Assembly (NCBI GenBank): GCA_950022655.1
Contig: OX465579.1
Location: 73,915,193 to 73,979,192, forward strand
Direction: 5' to 3'
From: Alentia gelatinosa
Taxonomy: Eukaryota; Annelida; Polychaeta; Phyllodocida; Polynoidae
Length of the DNA: 64,000 bases
Part shown: one piece after another, positions 35,060-64,000 of the stretch
Layout: every line of letters starts with the position of its first letter
Numbering within the stretch: the first letter of the stretch is position 1
Program-made: the position numbers and the translations under genes
Notes under the pieces: generated by a model
Databases searched by the model: none
Told to the model about the DNA's origin: nothing
What the model saw: the letters and a program-made list of their open reading frames with translations, nothing else

Positions 35060-35785
35060 CTCTCACCAGTCCTGACTCACCAGTCCTGACTCACCAGTCC
35101 ACACTCACCAGTCCACACTCACCAGTCCACACTCAACAGTCTACACCCACCAGTCCACACTTACCAGTCCACACTTACCAGTCCTCACTCACCAGTCCAC
35201 ACTCAACCGTCCACACTCACCAGTCCACACTCACCAGTCCACACTCAACAGTCCACACTCACCAGTCCACACTCAACAGTTCACACTCAACAGTCCACAC
35301 TTACCAGTCCACACTCACCAGTCCTCACTCACCAGTCCACACTCAACAGTCCACACTCACCAGTCCACACTCACCAGTCCACACTCAACAGTCCACACTC
35401 ACCAGTCCACACTCACCAGTCCACAATCAACAGTCCACACTTACCAGTCCACACTCACCAGTCCTCACTCACCAGTCCACACTCAACAGTCCACACTCAA
35501 CAGTCCACACTCACCAGTCCACACTCAACAGTCCACACTCAACAGTCCACACTCACCAGTCCACACTCACCAGTCCACACTCACCAGTCCACACTCACCA
35601 GTCCACACTCACCAGTCCACACTCAACAGTCCACACTCAACAGTCCACACTCACCAGTCCACACTCACCAGTCCACACTCACCAGTCCACACTCACCAGT
35701 CCACACTCACCGGTCCTCACTCACCAGTCCACACTCACCATTCCACACTCAACAGTCCACACTCACCAGTCCACACTGGCAACAG
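35060..35785. repeat. Minisatellite, 14-bp unit
   Basis: About 50 copies of CAGTCCACACTCAC with variants (CAACAGTCC, CACTTACCAG, CAGTCCTCACT). Because three units make 42 bases, an artificial 251-residue frame runs through it. Confidence 0.97.
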
Positions 35786-37027: not shown

Positions 37028-38238
37028 GCATATATCCTACATCCCTACATCCCACATCCTACATCCTACATCCTACATCCTACATCCCTACATCCTACAT
37101 CCCCACATCCTACATCCCTACATCCTACATCACTACATCCTACATCCTACATCCTACATCCCTACATCCTACATCCCCACATCCTACATCCTACATCCTA
37201 CATCCTACATCCTACATCCCTACATCCTACATCCCTACATCCTACATCACTACATCACTACATCCTACATCCCTATATGACTACATCCTACATCCTACAT
37301 CCCTACATCCCTACATCCCTATATGACTACATCCTACATCCTACATCCCTACATCCCTACATCCCACATCCTACATCCTACATCCTACATCCTACATCCC
37401 TACATCCTACATCCCTACATCCCTACATCACTACACCACTACATCCTACATCACTACATTACTACATCACTACATCACTACATCCTACATCACTACATTC
37501 TACATCACTACATTCTACATCACTACATCCTATATCCCTACATCCCCACATCCCCACATCCCTACATCATACATCACTACATCCTACATCACTACATTAC
37601 TACATCCCCACATCACTACATCCTACATCACTACATCCTACATCACTACATCACTACACCACTACATCCTACATCACTACATCACTACATCACTACATCC
37701 TACATCACTACATTCTACATCATTACATTCTACATCACTACATCACTACATCCTACATCACTACATCCTACATCCCTACATCACTACACCACTACATCCT
37801 ACATCACTACATCACTACATCACTACATCCTACATCACTACATTCTACATCATTACATTCTACATCACTACATCACTACATCCTACATCACTACATCCCT
37901 ACATCATACATCACTACATCACTACATCTCCACATCACTACATGCTACATCACTACATCACTACATCACTACATCCTACATCCCTATATGACTACATCCT
38001 ACATCCCTACATCCCTACATCCTACATCACTACATCACTACATCTTACATCCCTACATCCCCACATCCCCACATCCCTACATCCTACATCACTACATCAC
38101 TACATCCTACATCACTACATTCTACATCACTGCACCCTACATCACTACATCCTACATCACTATATCCTACATTCCCACATCCTACATCACTTCATTCTAC
38201 ATCACTACATCCCTACATCCCCACATCCCTACATCCTA
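37028..38238. repeat. Minisatellite of TACATCC/TACATCAC units
   Basis: About 1.2 kb of mixed 7- and 8-base units (CTACATC, CCTACATC, ACTACATC) arranged in higher-order blocks. For example, the stretch around 37640-37740 recurs around 37770-37880. Tyr/Ile/Leu/His-rich frames through it are by-products. Confidence 0.97.
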
Positions 38239-58379: not shown

Positions 58380-61274
58380 TTATACTGCCTCGTTCTCAGA
58401 TAAAGAAGCATATACGCCCCTTTTAAACATTTCCTTTGATTCAGTTTTTTGTATACCAACAGGTAGGTCTTTCCAGATTTTCAGACCGATGTACATAGGT
58501 GATCGTCTAAATTTTTCTTTCTTAGGGAAAGGAATTTTCAACATGTCTTTGCCCATATTTCTGGTCACCCTTCGGTTGTTGTCTCCAGTATACTCTTTCT
58601 CCAACTCTAGTAGTTGGTTTAAACAACGAATGATTCCCATTAATAGAACTGTTCTTCGAGTGTTCGGGTGATTTATTTTACATTTATTTAAAAGCTCCTC
58701 GGTGCTGATGGGTCTCTCTTCTCTGTAGGATTCCTTGCCTATTACAGTACGTAATACTCTGTAAATACAGCGATTCAGGTTGCTTTTTATTTTATCAGTA
58801 CAGCTAGTCACCAAGAAAGAACAATGATCGGCTATCGGTATTATACATGATTTGTTCACTACGATTGCAGTCTGCTGAGACAAATTTCTCCTAATTTTCT
58901 TTAGTAGATACCATTTATCGCTTACCGATTTTATCAGCTTATTGCAGTGTTTTTCAAAGTCTAAGTTACTGTCTATAATCGCTCCCAGATAGTTCATTTC
59001 TTCGCTTATAATTATTTCTTCATTTCCCAAAAATATCTTGCCCCTATTTTCCCGTTTAATTTTTCTTCTACATCCATGATATACTAGTCTAGTTTTCTTT
59101 ACATTTATCGTTAGCCTGTTCGATTTGTACCAGGTATGTATTATATTACAGTTTTCTTGTGTTTTTAACTCAGCATCATTAATAGTTTTTGCACTAGTCA
59201 CCATCACAAGATCATCGGCATACATTAAAAGATTCCCGCTCTCGGTACATGCAGCTAAATCATTAATGAATATGAGGAATAACAGAGGGCCCAGTATGGA
59301 ACCCTGCGGTACCCCATACTTGACATGTCTTGTATTGGAGCATACTTCATTATATTTGGTGAAACAAGACCTACCCTCTAAATACGATCTGAACCATTTT
59401 AATAAACGCTCGCCCACACCTGCCTCCGCCAATCTAAATATCAGAAGCCCATGGTCTACGCAATCGAACGCTTTTTTTACGTCGATGTATAGTGCAATGG
59501 CTACTTCATTCCGATTATTTATCTGATGTAGTTGATCTGTAAGTTTTAAAACCGCTCCCCCAGTACTTCGTTTCTTTCTGAATCCGAACTGTTTATTACT
59601 GAAAAATTTTGACTCTTCTAAAAAATCATATAATTGTTTTTGCACCACTCTTTCCAAAATTTTGCCCGTGACCGGAAGTACGCACACTGGTCTCCAATTT
59701 CCTACTTGAGAAAGATCTCCCTGTTCAGGTAGCGGGGCAATCCTTCCCGATTTCCAGGTAGGTGGGAATATCCCACTTGATATCGATTGACGGAGGATTT
59801 CAGTAAACAGGTCTATACAACGTAACAACATGTCTCTCAGCAAAGAGCACTTCAATCCTTCAAAACCAGATGATTTTTCTATATCGATTTGTTTTACCAG
59901 CTTCGATATTTCGACTACTGTAATATTGTCCATGTATATTTCAAAACCGTTGTTATTAACCCTTTGTACGTAGTTTAGCATATGTGAGCTACCCAGTTCT
60001 GTGTTCAGATTTCTACCTATGGTACAAAAATATTCATTTACATGTTCAGCGCCCTTATTTAACGGAATTTCTTCACCATTTTTATCGCAAAAGAGGATCT
60101 GTTCGCTTTTCTTTTTAGTTGGATTAATTACCCCATTTATTACCTTCCAATATTTCTTTGGTTCGAGTTTATATTTCTCCAGATTACTCTCTATAAACGT
60201 CCTTTTAGCTTCCCTCATCAGTCTAACCGTCTCCTTTTTTATTTTTTTCATTTCATCCAGGGCATTGATCCTCTCGATATCGTCTGCACTTCGTTTATTC
60301 TTAATGAATTTTCTGCATAGGTACCTATTTCTATTTAACTTTTTCTTGATTTTAGGTGTTACCCAGGATATTTTTTCGAATCTATCTATCCTTTTCCCAA
60401 ATGGTGCATTCTTATTTAGATAATCTTCTAAAGTATCTTGAAATATCTTCCACAGTTCTACTGGTCTTGGCTGCTGGTTGTTCGTATTCATAGCCAGTCT
60501 GATCTCGCTCTCGAGATCGTCCTCTTTCATGTTTATATAATTTCTGCAGTAATATTCTGTAGACTTAAAATTTTCTTTCCCTTTCTTCTTTTCTGCATAT
60601 ATAATAAGATGATCACTCTGAAAGATATCTAAGGTACCTGATCTAATTATGAATCGTGCATTTGTTAATATTGCGTCGATGCTGCTGCTATTACCTATAC
60701 CTGGCCTAGTCACTGTATTTATTATTCTCTTCAGGTCGTAGTTTCGGGCTGTATCTACTAGTTCCTTATTTCTGGGATCTCTTCTTTTACGCGCGTCGAG
60801 GTTGATGTCTCCAATTATCCAAATTTCGGTATTGCGAATCCTATTATCACTGCATGTCAGATTTATGTATTCTAGTAAGGGCTTTATGTTGTAACCTGGG
60901 GTTCGGTATATGTTGATTATACTAATACTTTTATGCCCTGGCTTACTAATATTTAATACTAGGGATTCTATATTGTCTGTCATATAACATAAATCGGTAA
61001 TCATTGTTGTGTGACTAGTCCACCTTGTATTAACATAGACACCAACTCCCCCTCCAATCCCAATTACCCTGTCATTCCGGTAGAAATGGAAATCCGGGAT
61101 ATCCACAAATTTGTCTGGTAATCTTTGTTTCAGTAGAGTTTCTGACAGACCTATGACATCAAAATTTGTTAAGTTCTTTGTGATATGAACTTGTTTTGAG
61201 AATAGGCTATGTATATTCCAATGACAGATCTTAAAGCTCTTCCCTCTGTTAATTTCAATACATTTGTCAGTCAT
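58380..61274 (-). CDS. LINE ORF2: AP-endonuclease and reverse transcriptase (964 aa)
   Basis: The protein nicks target DNA and copies the element RNA there. The frame starts at ATG 61274 and is uninterrupted. Endonuclease (residues about 1-230): CHWNIHSLFS, IGLSETLL (Glu), GGGVGVYVN, NIYRTPGY, IIGDINLDA (Asp, Asn) and FQSDHLII (Asp-His), all active-site elements being present. A Lys-rich linker follows. Reverse transcriptase (about 510-800): WRPVCVLPVTGKILE, FGFRKKRSTGGA, YIDVKKAFDCVDH (Asp), YGVPQGSILGPLLF, FINDLAA, LMYADDLVMV (catalytic YADD), LTINVKKTRLVYHG and MNYLGAIIDSNLDFEKH. The C-terminus contains LKIWKDLPVGIQ. No RNase H domain is seen. It is likely active or very young. Confidence 0.95.
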   Translation of the reverse strand: MTDKCIEINRGKSFKICHWNIHSLFSKQVHITKNLTNFDVIGLSETLLKQRLPDKFVDIPDFHFYRNDRVIGIGGGVGVYVNTRWTSHTTMITDLCYMTDNIESLVLNISKPGHKSISIINIYRTPGYNIKPLLEYINLTCSDNRIRNTEIWIIGDINLDARKRRDPRNKELVDTARNYDLKRIINTVTRPGIGNSSSIDAILTNARFIIRSGTLDIFQSDHLIIYAEKKKGKENFKSTEYYCRNYINMKEDDLESEIRLAMNTNNQQPRPVELWKIFQDTLEDYLNKNAPFGKRIDRFEKISWVTPKIKKKLNRNRYLCRKFIKNKRSADDIERINALDEMKKIKKETVRLMREAKRTFIESNLEKYKLEPKKYWKVINGVINPTKKKSEQILFCDKNGEEIPLNKGAEHVNEYFCTIGRNLNTELGSSHMLNYVQRVNNNGFEIYMDNITVVEISKLVKQIDIEKSSGFEGLKCSLLRDMLLRCIDLFTEILRQSISSGIFPPTWKSGRIAPLPEQGDLSQVGNWRPVCVLPVTGKILERVVQKQLYDFLEESKFFSNKQFGFRKKRSTGGAVLKLTDQLHQINNRNEVAIALYIDVKKAFDCVDHGLLIFRLAEAGVGERLLKWFRSYLEGRSCFTKYNEVCSNTRHVKYGVPQGSILGPLLFLIFINDLAACTESGNLLMYADDLVMVTSAKTINDAELKTQENCNIIHTWYKSNRLTINVKKTRLVYHGCRRKIKRENRGKIFLGNEEIIISEEMNYLGAIIDSNLDFEKHCNKLIKSVSDKWYLLKKIRRNLSQQTAIVVNKSCIIPIADHCSFLVTSCTDKIKSNLNRCIYRVLRTVIGKESYREERPISTEELLNKCKINHPNTRRTVLLMGIIRCLNQLLELEKEYTGDNNRRVTRNMGKDMLKIPFPKKEKFRRSPMYIGLKIWKDLPVGIQKTESKEMFKRGVYASLSENEAV

Positions 61275-62468
61275 TTAAATATTGATTCTAACGATATGTT
61301 TATTTCGAAATAGAACTCCCATACAGCGTAATGATGGATCTGAACAATTGGTGCTATCAACAATAACAAACGTGCATGCTTATATAACAATGTTGGGTGT
61401 CCGCGGGCCTTGTGGCTGGGGGACACAGAAGATAGTCCATGTAATACATATTCGACTATCCTAGTCATATCTTAATGCAACCTACAAAGTCTGGTCTTAA
61501 TGGTTTAAATAATTTTTGAGTCTATCCGCAGACTCCACAGCATATGATGTCCGTTTATGTCCTGTTAATATGAGTATAAATATGTTGTCCCGAATTTTAA
61601 AGTCTCCCAATTTTGACAAGTTTACTGTATATACTGATTACTATTTTATATGATAATAGTGCGGAATTATTAGATTATTGTATTGCCAGTCCTGTATGGA
61701 ACTGTCTTACTTACATGGTATAATGCTATCATATACCGGTGGCCACTATACTGTTAGCCTTATTATCATACAAAGTCCGTTCTGTCGATCAAGTACAGCA
61801 TTATTATAATCCATGTAGTTCATAACTCCACTGTATAGAGTTAGAATATGGGTTTTACGCAGCTTCGTCAATGTCCAGTATGGAATATGGATTATACATT
61901 TAAAGTATTAATACCATTCATAACACAATCCATTGAGCGGGTCTTTGAGCATGTAGTAACATACCAGTATGGATATGTAACTAGATGCGCACTGGTTACA
62001 TAGTTGTTATAATGTTATTCTGATAGCTACTGAATCTCCATCAAGTCCAGTATGGAACTCGAATTGTACATCGGTTAACACCCACCTTTATGCGGTATGT
62101 GACGCCTTTTGTAACATACCGGTATGGATATGTAATAGACTAACATCGATCTTATGGTTGTTTGATATCCACATTTAAAAGACAGTCTGTATATATCTTA
62201 TATCTTATATCGCCTGAGTCCAGTATGGAACTCATTTTATATATCAACGACATAGTCCCGTGGGTCATAATTTCGAACACGTCTTAACACACCGGTATGG
62301 ATATGTAGATCATTGATATTCGGATGGATAGATATGCATCTACGTATGGTTAACGATACTCGTACATAATATAGGCGCGTAATTTCTCACAATTATTGTT
62401 TTCCTAAAGACCGGAGAACAGGAAAAAACTATGGGAACAAGGCCTCCAGTATGGAAAGTCTTATTAGT
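61275..62468 (-). other. Inter-ORF spacer of the LINE
   Basis: About 1.2 kb between the SGNH ORF stop and the ORF2 ATG. No ORF is supported. Most of it is taken up by degenerate repeats of about 175 bp (61691-62460). The function is unknown; candidates are an internal promoter, a translation-restart region or a chance expansion. Confidence 0.6.
61691..62460. repeat. Degenerate tandem repeats of about 175 bp with palindromic cores
   Basis: GTCCAGTATGGAACT-like words occur at about 61691 (TCCTGTATGGAACT), 61871, 62047, 62217 and 62446. Between them ACATACCGGTATGGATATGT-like words occur at about 61963, 62117 and 62287, giving two alternating motifs per unit. CATACCGGTATG is a perfect 12-base palindrome. 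Sequence between motifs is poorly conserved, so only the motifs seem to be kept. Confidence 0.75.
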
Positions 62469-63116
62469 CTATTTATGCGCTCCATTTTCACGGTTCTTTA
62501 TGTAGGCTTTCTCTATCTCGGCGGCTATCTTGATTTGTGATGACCATGTAGGATGCACACCGTCCTTCAGCATGTAGATTCTTGGTGGTTTCGTTCCGCC
62601 TCGATTTTTTGGTTGCACCACATGATCACTACGTGGGGTGATAAGATTTCCTGACTTGTTTAATGAGTCAATTTCCTTGTTTATTGTGGCTTGGTATATC
62701 TTTTCCTGGTCCGCAGTCATCTCTGGGTAGGGGATACCGTTATTTGCCAAGATCAGGGACATGGTATATACACTGCAAAAAACTATTTTACAGCCTGGTG
62801 CGATTTCTTCCATCTTTGATATCATATATTGAAACTCAGACAATACTTCCGCTACTACTCGTCTTTCTCTTGTTGACTTGGACGCCGTGATGCGACCGTT
62901 GCTCGTATTTTTCTGTGTGATGTTATTTATCCCACCGATGATATATATTGTGTCAATATCACCGTCCTTTTCAAGGATGTCGTATAGGTTTTTTCGGATT
63001 TCCTCGATATCAGCACCCGGGATACAAGAACAGACTTTAAATTCTTGTACAGTTTCTCCGACTAGTTCTTCTAGGCCACGGCATCTCGAATCTCCTATGA
63101 TTATAAAACTTCCCAT
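62469..63116 (-). CDS. SGNH/GDSL-type hydrolase ORF of the LINE (215 aa)
   Basis: The first ATG is at 63116; an upstream GTG in the same frame exists at 63155. The protein begins MGSFIIIGDSRCRGLEELVG, with the block I GDS motif carrying the nucleophile Ser. IYIIGGINNIT provides the block III Gly/Asn oxyanion-hole residues, and LKDGVHPTW the block V Asp-x-x-His. This is the catalytic set of SGNH hydrolases (esterases). Esterase domains of this kind are known in ORF1 proteins of CR1/L2-type LINEs, where the role is unclear. Here it is a separate ORF starting 62 bases after the NADAR stop. The frame is uninterrupted, which suggests that it is kept. Confidence 0.85.
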   Translation of the reverse strand: MGSFIIIGDSRCRGLEELVGETVQEFKVCSCIPGADIEEIRKNLYDILEKDGDIDTIYIIGGINNITQKNTSNGRITASKSTRERRVVAEVLSEFQYMISKMEEIAPGCKIVFCSVYTMSLILANNGIPYPEMTADQEKIYQATINKEIDSLNKSGNLITPRSDHVVQPKNRGGTKPPRIYMLKDGVHPTWSSQIKIAAEIEKAYIKNRENGAHK

Positions 63117-63177
63117 ATTTGTTTGTAATCTGTAGAGTGAAACGGAATGGAACACCAGTATGGATGTGCATACGACT

Positions 63178-63790
63178 CTACTGATCTCTGATAGACATGA
63201 GAATGTGGCCCATTATATTTTCACCCTTGAACTCGTTCGATTCGTACAGGCGGCTGCCGCGACTGGCTCCGCCGCCCCAACACAGATTTTCTGTGGATTC
63301 GACTAGTTTAGAGCCTGTGGTTTTTGCCAGAATGCGTTTCAGCCCACTATTTTGGTCAAATTTCTCGGCTACTAACCCCCGCATGATATTGATCTTGTCT
63401 AAGCTCCAGCTGTCTATCTTATCTCTCTTATCCACCTTTTTCCCCAACTTCATAACGCTCATAGGATTATCGATGGATAAGAGTGCTGCGGCTAATGTAT
63501 CTTCGTTATGGTATAGGCATTTAGCGTGGACGTATGCTTTTTCCACCTATTTGAAGTCGTATGGAACACCGTTTACCTCTTTTTCCAGTTTGCATCGGAA
63601 TAAGTTGGAGAGTGGACACTTTTCCCCGTTAAAGAGAATCCCAGAGTTTGACATTTCTGCACCCGTCGGAACTTCTATTTCCTTTTCTAGTTTCCCCTCG
63701 ATTACTGGTGCCTGGTTATTCGCGATATGTTGTAGCCTTTCTTCTATCGTGGGTTTCCCGCCTTTTATCCCCTCATCCTGTGTCCCATTC
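63178..63790 (-). pseudogene. NADAR domain of LINE ORF1 (one stop)
   Basis: The minus-strand frame reads ILFNGEKCPLSNLFRCKL, then a TAG (63549-63547), then VEKAYVHAKCLYHNEDT (conserved Glu of the E-x-AY helix), PMSVMKLGKKV, SWSLDKINIMRGLVAEKFDQ, LAKTTGSKLVEST, LCWGGGASRG and KGENIMGHILMSIRDQ. This is a complete NADAR (YbiA-like) domain in the right order, including the F-x-G..SN strand, the LGKKV and IM...KF-x-QN helices, WGGG and the final G-x-N-x-MG..LM-x-IR. The family cleaves N-glycosidic bonds in NAD/ADP-ribose-related or riboflavin-pathway molecules; some members are reported to remove ADP-ribose from guanine. Upstream it joins ORF1 through a one-base frameshift near 63775. The stop may be a decay mutation or an assembly error. 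Function within the element is unknown. Confidence 0.85.
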
Positions 63791-64000
63791 TTTTCCTTTT
63801 TCGATATTCACGTTTTTTTCCCGGGACGGGTCTTTGGCAACTCTCTTCTCTTCAGGTAGCAGTTCCTCGTTAAGTAGGTGCACCTCGCTTGTCCTATAGA
63901 ATTTCCCCTTGATCATTGCCCCTTCACTAGTAATGCGCGCAGTATGACCTAGTTTCTTGGCCTTCCGTACAGCCACCCTCAATTTGTACCTAGCTTCTCG
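63773..64000 (-). CDS. LINE ORF1, C-terminal part (cut by window edge)
   Basis: The frame is open from the window edge. It reads REARYKLRVAVRKAKKLGHT and then ITSEGAMIKGKFYRTSEVHL, the end of a LINE ORF1 nucleic-acid-binding protein (compare EGNDVKLYTPKQLHHLL in the older copy). It then runs into a charged Glu/Lys linker and stops at 63773. A one-base shift there would continue it into the NADAR frame (DEGIKGGKPTIEERL). The N-terminal part lies outside the window. Confidence 0.7.
   Translation of the reverse strand, partial: REARYKLRVAVRKAKKLGHTARITSEGAMIKGKFYRTSEVHLLNEELLPEEKRVAKDPSREKNVNIEKGKEWDTG

Follow-up and report, generated by a model that had tools for sequence, protein, structure and literature searches.

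The window, that is, the whole 64,000-nucleotide stretch of Alentia gelatinosa DNA analysed here, ends in a LINE copy that lies on the minus strand and extends from 58.4 to beyond 64.0 kb. The element consists of three ORFs, all read from the minus strand: ORF1, which combines an L1-type module with a NADAR domain, the SGNH-like ORF2, and ORF3, coding for an endonuclease-reverse transcriptase (RT). ORF1 is represented by the end of its L1-type module (CTD part; 63773..64000), an open frame with a tblastn match to ORF1 of related copies (group A, see below) that continues past the window edge (locus L009), and by the NADAR domain in the C-terminal part of the ORF (63181..63624). ORF2 (62469..63116) carries the SGNH/GDSL-hydrolase-like blocks GDS, GGINN, and DGVHP and aligns with ORF2 of other copies; its Lipase_GDSL_2 match (E 0.0014) stays below the Pfam cut-off. 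ORF2 and ORF3 are separated by about 1.2 kb of non-coding sequence (the linker, 61275..62468), in which pairing tests and a covariance model point to eight bulged-U hairpins. ORF3 (58380..61274) is open over 964 codons and unites an APE-type endonuclease (Exo_endo_phos_2, E 4.8e-7) with the RT (RVT_1, E 2.2e-36) in a single ORF, which is also open in several other copies. Elsewhere, the window contains two long tandem arrays at 35062-35777 and 37036-38236, built from a 14-nt unit (51 copies) and from 8/15/23-nt units, respectively.

The window copy is decayed. The ORF1 piece at 63773-64000 and the NADAR frame at 63178-63807 are in different reading frames, and an in-frame TAG (63547..63549, minus strand) interrupts the NADAR domain, while relatives are open. 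The closest copy detected elsewhere in the genome, at C9:55781380-55782000, is 98% identical over the NADAR domain, lacks the stop there, and remains open for 460 codons. An earlier note on this DNA had described a complete NADAR domain between the end of ORF1 and the downstream LINE ORFs. Completeness holds for the set of landmark motifs, all six of which are present (LSN, VEKAY, LGKKV, KFDQN, WGGG, and GENIMG), but this copy's reading frame is interrupted. In addition, the SGNH-like ORF2 intervenes between NADAR and RT.

Profile PF08719, with a curated cut-off of 35.1 bits, matched the translation of 63178-63546 alone with an E-value of 1.5e-20. With the TAG read as X, the window domain reached 82.1 bits (E 7.2e-23) over profile positions 9-161 of 163, which excludes a chance motif match as the source of the NADAR call. 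An AlphaFold model, computed with the internal stop read as Q and an alignment including 37 database NADAR homologs, had a pLDDT of 91.7 and a pTM of 0.87. Only two PDB entries matched the predicted fold significantly: the best was 8bau (E 5.4e-8, TM 0.80), the Phytophthora nicotianae NADAR in complex with ADP-ribose, and the second was 2b3w, E. coli YbiA (TM 0.71). The equivalents of the P. nicotianae NADAR residues E43, K50, E125, and W133 are all present in the window copy. The YbiA/NADAR fold is thus a confident prediction, and by profile score, predicted fold, and catalytic residues the domain is assigned to the YbiA subfamily of the NADAR superfamily.

The host also has a cellular NADAR gene (locus L010, 180 bits), whose product is, among the proteins compared, 62% identical to a NADAR of the gastropod Batillaria and 47% identical to that of the pearl oyster Pinctada. 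A gene of this kind lying beside a LINE by chance could produce the association as an artefact. A first look at the 1.23-Gb genome yielded 3136 NADAR candidates. The best 150 were scored, and every one of these exceeded the Pfam cut-off; the longest open frame among them, of 1040 codons, surrounds the match at C5:15169851-15170321 (L061). All match counts given here come from such best-scored subsets and are therefore lower bounds that are biased towards conserved copies. Twenty loci were fetched, namely the window's own and 19 from the best-scoring NADAR matches. Nineteen of them proved to be LINE copies, and the remaining one, L010, is the cellular gene and showed no LINE matches. An RT match followed the NADAR domain downstream in 18 of the 19 LINE loci, and the last (L025) had an SGNH match only.

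With the window RT as the query, no fewer than 31 of the best 47 scored places had a same-strand NADAR domain 1.5-3.0 kb upstream, and none had one downstream or on the opposite strand (NADAR set: 79 of the 150 Pfam-scored matches plus the 150 of a second scored set, which also served for the SGNH linkage). Slices taken 1.3-2.9 kb upstream of the other 16 places gave no ORF1 match in 15 cases, while the remaining one matched the N-terminal part of ORF1; an SGNH match was present in three of the 16. These NADAR-less relatives are likely products of 5' truncation, with telltale remnants in few. With the window SGNH sequence as the query, a match lay directly downstream of NADAR in at least 118 of the best 150 scored NADAR matches, never upstream or on the opposite strand, and the gap between the two had a median of 32 nt. 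By its fixed order and spacing in more than 100 linked copies, the NADAR domain is a standing part of a LINE family. These counts, together with a LINE NADAR clade that stands apart from L010 (support 98/95, see below), exclude an accidental host neighbour, a reading to which we give a negligible probability. The earlier note had placed a NADAR domain in a LINE ORF1 and had named two outcomes that would refute this, namely the lack of a significant NADAR profile match and the lack of further copies joining NADAR to the same RT. Neither occurred: the PF08719 match is strong, and many copies link the domain to the same RT and the same SGNH ORF. The structure prediction that the note had also proposed gave a confident model, which resembles an ADP-ribose-bound NADAR best.

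Four groups can be distinguished among the 19 LINE loci: A (six loci, including the window), B (eight), C (L017 only), and D (L014, L018, L020, and L026). In a tree with 42 database RTs (out of the best 120 of 355), calculated by a quick method without bootstrap, the RTs of groups A, B, and C formed one clade (SH-aLRT 99), which also holds the neighbouring RT of L022. The group D RT (L014) lay far away on a long branch, a placement that the program calls unsure. The L014 RT matched human L1 ORF2p with E-values of 2e-110 to 2.9e-109 and contains a zf-RVT domain. For group A, the RT of L027, which is 49% identical to that of the window, had its best matches with 8c8j (3.9e-14) and L1 ORF2p (2.1e-13); for group B, the RT of L012 matched R2 best (5.9e-15) and retrieved no entry named L1 at E-values up to 0.001. 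Scans of the window, L027, L012, and L017 RTs detected no zf-RVT. Given the weak L1 ORF2p match of its relative L027 and the lack of zf-RVT, the window element is by its RT not L1/Tx1-like, whereas group D is L1/Tx1-like by the same comparison. The database RTs nearest to that of the window, in a comparison made without reference clade elements, are unnamed, and some carry PF00628 (PHD finger).

The L1/Tx1-like group D elements are linked to NADAR as well. Their RT as the query had a NADAR domain 2.2-3.3 kb upstream at 14 or more of the best 36 scored places (37 match rows, two adjoining ones joined) and at none downstream or on the opposite strand, based on 149 distinct NADAR matches of the 150 scored. 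Slices from ten of the other 22 places revealed five full NADAR domains (hmmsearch E 4e-52 or lower), three ORF1 matches reaching the slice border where NADAR would begin, and two places without an ORF1 match.

In the NADAR tree, which included 51 database proteins (out of the best 120 of 386), the 18 LINE NADARs of groups A-D formed one clade (UFBoot/aLRT 98/95) that excludes all 51 database NADARs and the host gene L010; the branching order of the four groups within it is not settled. Their best-scoring database relative is P0003, a metagenome protein of 239 aa from a contig of 1460 bases. Its N-terminal part resembles the ORF1 module (CTD) by eye, with a profile test that was not significant, and a protein search with an ORF1-length query gave no match among 862 candidates. 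The ORF1 modules are homologous according to hhalign (A-D 98.4%, E 7e-15; A-B 97.3%; B-D 93.4%), and the 115 residues upstream of NADAR in group C matched none of A, B, or D. An SGNH-like ORF occupies the same place in two of the four group D copies, L020 and L026 (A-D 96.6%, B-D 97.9%), with that of L020 broken near its start; a motif scan of L014 and L018 detected no SGNH-like ORF. By these sequence comparisons, NADARs of a single clade are used by two distant kinds of LINE, the non-L1 lineage of the window and the L1/Tx1-like group D. Because the NADAR clade and the gene order are both shared, the pattern is best read as the transfer of a common 5' cassette across LINE lineages, a conclusion for which the homology of the ORF1 modules alone would be insufficient. 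An exchange of ORF1 has been proposed before for the CR1 and L2 lineages (available text of PMC4120745).

In fetched copies with a single open ORF1 frame, this frame spans 565-839 codons from stop to stop. Its N-terminal part shows weak coiled-coil matches and is followed by a conserved module of about 150 residues, with NADAR occupying the C-terminal part. A profile of 12 modules from groups A, B, and D matched the LINE-1 ORF1p structures 2ykp (E 7e-5) and 2yko (E 9e-5); a longer profile including the N-terminal part gave weak coiled-coil matches only, and the module had no match in Pfam. On the strength of the 2ykp and 2yko matches, we class this ORF1 as L1-type (coiled coil, RRM, CTD) and extended by NADAR, the profile basis being groups A, B, and D. 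The SGNH blocks GDS, GGIN, and DG-HP recur in ORF2 of groups A and B. In group C (L017), the N block was not seen; in L020, the first block is missing from the frame. A single-sequence fold model of the SGNH ORF (pLDDT 44.6) was useless as structural evidence.

Group B shows recent LINE-type movement. Copies are 99.7% identical over 7.26 kb and 6.3 kb, L019, L021, L022, and L023 carry an A-tail after AATAAA, and L023 is 5'-truncated. The search for target-site duplications in this group was unconvincing, with one candidate in repetitive flanks for L019, a 7-nt match only for L021, and none for L023. Directly behind the first element of L022, in the same orientation, lies a second LINE RT of the group B type (L022:7794-9932).

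The combination of NADAR and LINE is not without precedent. The earlier note knew of no well-known description of the domain in a retrotransposon, a statement overtaken by a report from 2025 (PMC12477816, available text) of NADAR in ORF1 of several Crassostrea gigas Tx1 LINE families and also in brown-alga Gypsy elements. The oyster elements share the YbiA-type NADAR inside a LINE ORF1 with the window element, whose RT, however, is not L1/Tx1-like and is encoded by an ORF of 964 codons, with SGNH-like sequence in an ORF of its own. Group D is probably of the same kind as the oyster elements, judging from the L1-like RT and zf-RVT of L014. A confinement of NADAR to Tx1-type elements is ruled out by the RTs of groups A-C with their weak L1 matches, lack of zf-RVT, and clade of their own. 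The Ectocarpus Gypsy case likewise represents a NADAR captured by a retroelement, but this is an LTR element with NADAR at the N-terminus of Pol. It is probably a separate capture, since its blastp matches were reported to be almost exclusively bacterial (PMC12477816, available text). Our literature search, with preprints and most subscription journals outside its scope, gave no further report of NADAR in a LINE among the papers listed. The claim to novelty is thus weakened, NADAR in a LINE being already in print for Tx1. The available text of PMC12477816 presents no analysis of linkage, selection, or the active site for the oyster elements; the present analysis adds a three-ORF lineage outside L1, the cassette common to both lineages, the evidence on selection and the active site, and the covarying RNA hairpin array.

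Esterase-bearing LINEs of the CR1, L2, and RTEX clades are a second point of reference, as they encode an SGNH hydrolase upstream of the endonuclease-RT, where the window element has its SGNH-like ORF (PMC3905857, PMC5408684; available parts). There, the esterase resides in ORF1, and such ORF1 proteins are described as devoid of structural RNA-binding domains. In the window element, by contrast, the SGNH-like sequence forms a separate ORF2 behind an L1-type, NADAR-bearing ORF1. The SGNH-like protein would do a separate job here, by analogy with the esterase LINEs, for which a role in lipid or membrane handling has been proposed (PMC3905857, available part).

The ORF2-ORF3 linkers of group A contain 3-11 copies per element of a small predicted RNA hairpin with a 5-bp stem, a bulged U, a CC paired with GG, and the loop AUACN. 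The motif CCATACNGG occurs at 32 linker sites in the six group A copies, namely the window, L011, L015, L016, L027, and L028. The eight window hairpins lie on the minus strand at 61683-61707, 61867-61891, 61956-61980, 62039-62063, 62111-62135, 62212-62236, 62284-62308, and 62438-62462. A first pairing test without the bulge was negative. The bulged-U register was picked by eye after inspection of the sequences and then tested: across 31 distinct sites, 110 of 155 stem positions pair, compared to 74.6 with shuffled partners (0/5000). An alignment of 21 of the 32 linker hairpins, which omits the 11 of L027, many of them pairing poorly in this register, gave 85.0% pairing cells versus 64.7% in shuffles, 32 cells changed on both sides versus 10.7, and a covariation score of 0.554 versus 0.174 (each 0/500 shuffles); slid registers failed. 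Two coarser measures did not go beyond the shuffles, namely the number of pairs in which both sides had changed (5 versus 4.6; 321/500) and the number of further pair types (16 versus 12.5; 29/500).

A covariance model built from these 21 hairpins recovered a held-out hairpin inside the RT ORF in five of the six group A copies (28.6-30.4 bits). In the window, it lies at 59283..59307 (minus strand, 28.6 bits), where the codons specify QGSILGP. The seven codons CAG GGT TCC ATA CTG GGC CCT are identical in the same number of copies, three of the five being close relatives, although dS is saturated in the group A RT pairs computed. A weak match (18.3 bits, E 0.025; 63147..63171, minus strand) precedes the ATG of ORF2 by about 30 nt, and two weak window matches fall outside the element (E 0.14 and 0.72). 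At E-values up to 1, the model matched none of the group B, C, or D loci nor L010, and Rfam gave no match to the hairpin; the fold of the whole linker RNA was not unusual (z -1.1). The architecture recalls phage coat-protein operator hairpins. The bulged-U hairpins are a candidate protein-binding or packaging signal; that they bind the element's own ORF1 protein is a guess.

According to the available text of PMC11543638, the mechanistic residues of the P. nicotianae NADAR are E43, K50, and E125, the last of which defines the YbiA subfamily. Chain numbering in 8bau equals that of PMC11543638 plus 2, as derived from E45, K52, E127, D132, and W135 in our alignments. The LINE equivalents of E43, K50, E125, and W133 are E42, K49, E123, and W130 in alignment A1. 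They are invariant in all 18 rows, which omit the stop-bearing, damaged, or near-identical LINE copies L009, L021, L023, L025, L026, L031, and L032. A residue in the LM-x-R last strand was also considered as the YbiA glutamate and rejected, as it varies and E125 of 8bau aligns with the glutamate in LVE-(S/A)-T, which does not. A set of 59 NADARs comprised the 18 of A1, the host protein L010, and 40 slices from best-scoring matches that were picked by NADAR score, not by LINE context. Here, E43 was conserved in 59/59, K50 in 57/59 (two R), and both E125 and W133 in 58/59.

Nei-Gojobori counts gave low dN/dS values. For NADAR, the ratio was 0.05 between L012 and L025 (dS 0.95; L025 is partly decayed). 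The pair L013-L019 (NADAR dS 1.7) yielded 0.05 for NADAR, 0.06 for SGNH, 0.07 for the RT, and 0.15 for the rest of ORF1 (99 codons). Within the window family, NADAR ratios were 0.08-0.12 (window and L029 versus L030 and L031; dS 1.4-1.7), and two very close pairs gave 0.27 and 0.30 at a dS of about 0.04. Pairs with dS 2.6-2.8 ranged from 0.07 to 0.20. Since dS is saturated in most other pairs, the values are approximate, yet they are still far below 1. NADAR dN was lower than that of the rest of ORF1 in 28/28 pairs having both and lower than that of the RT in 12/16; the four exceptions were L013-L022, L019-L022, L021-L022, and the near-identical L019-L021. We conclude that the NADAR domain is under purifying selection, with near-invariant catalytic residues. 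A passive binder of ADP-ribose or nucleic acid, or a non-catalytic structural part of ORF1, would agree with the many variable NADAR residues outside the active site. It would not lead one to expect the near-invariance of the catalytic E, K, and E in 58 copies from four divergent groups, nor a slower evolution of NADAR than of the remaining ORF1 in all 28 pairs, and we judge it quite improbable.

What the domain does for the element can be approached from characterised NADARs, by analogy with which it would act as an ADP-ribosyl hydrolase. The tested NADAR and YbiA proteins hydrolyse guanosine ADP-ribose, not thymidine ADP-ribose, and the roles of eukaryotic NADARs, those of animals included, are called unclear (PMC11125620, available text). 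In the DarT1-NADAR toxin-antitoxin system, a NADAR of the same fold and active site reverses guanine ADP-ribosylation (PMC11543638, available text). That protein, however, is a bacterial antitoxin with a catalytic aspartate, whereas the glutamate of the YbiA type is present in the LINE domain. DarT (PF14487) was not found in this genome, with a positive control match in Deinobacterium. A search for Scabin-like proteins gave no match in any sequence searched and is hence uninformative. Guanine-N2 ADP-ribosylation activity on DNA has been described for six edible clams, from which the protein CARP-1 was cloned (PMC11209040, available text).

Our preferred reading of the locus, which we hold tentatively and put slightly short of an even chance, is a decayed three-ORF LINE whose NADAR domain, carried on a likely RNA-binding ORF1 protein, likely strips host-derived ADP-ribose from guanines of the element's RNA or cDNA. 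Given its L1-ORF1p-like module, the ORF1 protein would bring NADAR to the element RNA within an RNA-protein particle, the substrate would be ADP-ribosylated guanine in this RNA or in new cDNA, and the purpose would be counter-defence against ADP-ribose attached by the host. Such removal is plausible in view of the conserved catalytic residues and the purifying selection. Several points make the explanation less firm. CARP-1 is known from clams, whereas the host NADAR has its closest counterpart, among the proteins compared, in a gastropod, and a guanine ADP-ribosyltransferase acting here is hypothetical. DarT was not found, 16 of the 47 window-RT relatives lacked NADAR in the slices, most pairs have a saturated dS, and in four of 16 pairs NADAR dN exceeded RT dN. 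Exchanges in the E. coli C7 NADAR also count against it: E88A (the E43 equivalent) had a minor effect in vitro, E-to-Q being the inactivating exchange, and K95R still hydrolyses in vitro without rescuing from DarT1 (PMC11543638, available text).

The chief rival has NADAR acting on small NAD-derived molecules such as ADP-ribose derivatives or cyclic signals, by which the LINE would dampen NAD-based alarm signalling. The active site is a general ADP-ribose site, and for phage NADARs mostly small ADP-ribose derivatives have been proposed as substrates, which counts against our explanation; the same paper assigns macromolecular ADP-ribose to the NADARs of eukaryotic RNA viruses (PMC9503650). Like these animal viruses, whose polyproteins contain NADAR or Macro domains, the LINE is an RNA-based selfish element with an ADP-ribose-processing domain, but the viruses join theirs to an RNA-dependent RNA polymerase and do without reverse transcription (PMC9503650). 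The fusion of NADAR to an L1-ORF1p-like protein in groups A, B, and D also favours a substrate in the particle, and we regard small-molecule substrates as rather unlikely. Help in processing or repairing the element's RNA intermediate, the hypothesis put forward for the oyster and Ectocarpus elements (PMC12477816, available text), agrees with the co-occurrence of NADARs and RNA repair systems (PMC9503650). Pfam scans of the element ORFs examined nevertheless revealed no RNA ligase, KptA, or 2H domain, and this explanation appears unlikely to us.

LINE integration nicks DNA, and PARPs mark nicked sites. In another reading, NADAR would act where the element integrates, stripping proteins or DNA ends of ADP-ribose and so countering a PARP response to the nick of target-primed reverse transcription. 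Characterised NADARs, however, reverse guanine and not thymidine ADP-ribosylation, and the available text of PMC11125620 records no NADAR activity on PARP products; we consider this role improbable.

Returning to guanine de-ADP-ribosylation as the preferred function, a wider version of it is conceivable, though doubtful in our estimation: an RNA-binding ADP-ribose eraser and an esterase would form a two-gene survival cassette that is shared between LINE superfamilies and clears their RNA or cDNA of guanine ADP-ribosylation imposed by the host. That selfish elements of several divergent families, from two LINE lineages, have retained a NADAR under purifying selection and with its active site intact suggests that there is a host mark worth erasing. 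For the guanine ADP-ribosylation of DNA in clams, the available text of PMC11209040 draws no link to selfish elements. The element described here poses directly the question of whether retrotransposon RNA or cDNA is ADP-ribosylated by the host and whether the ORF1 protein reverses this. If so, ADP-ribosylation of nucleic acids would be an animal defence against retrotransposons.
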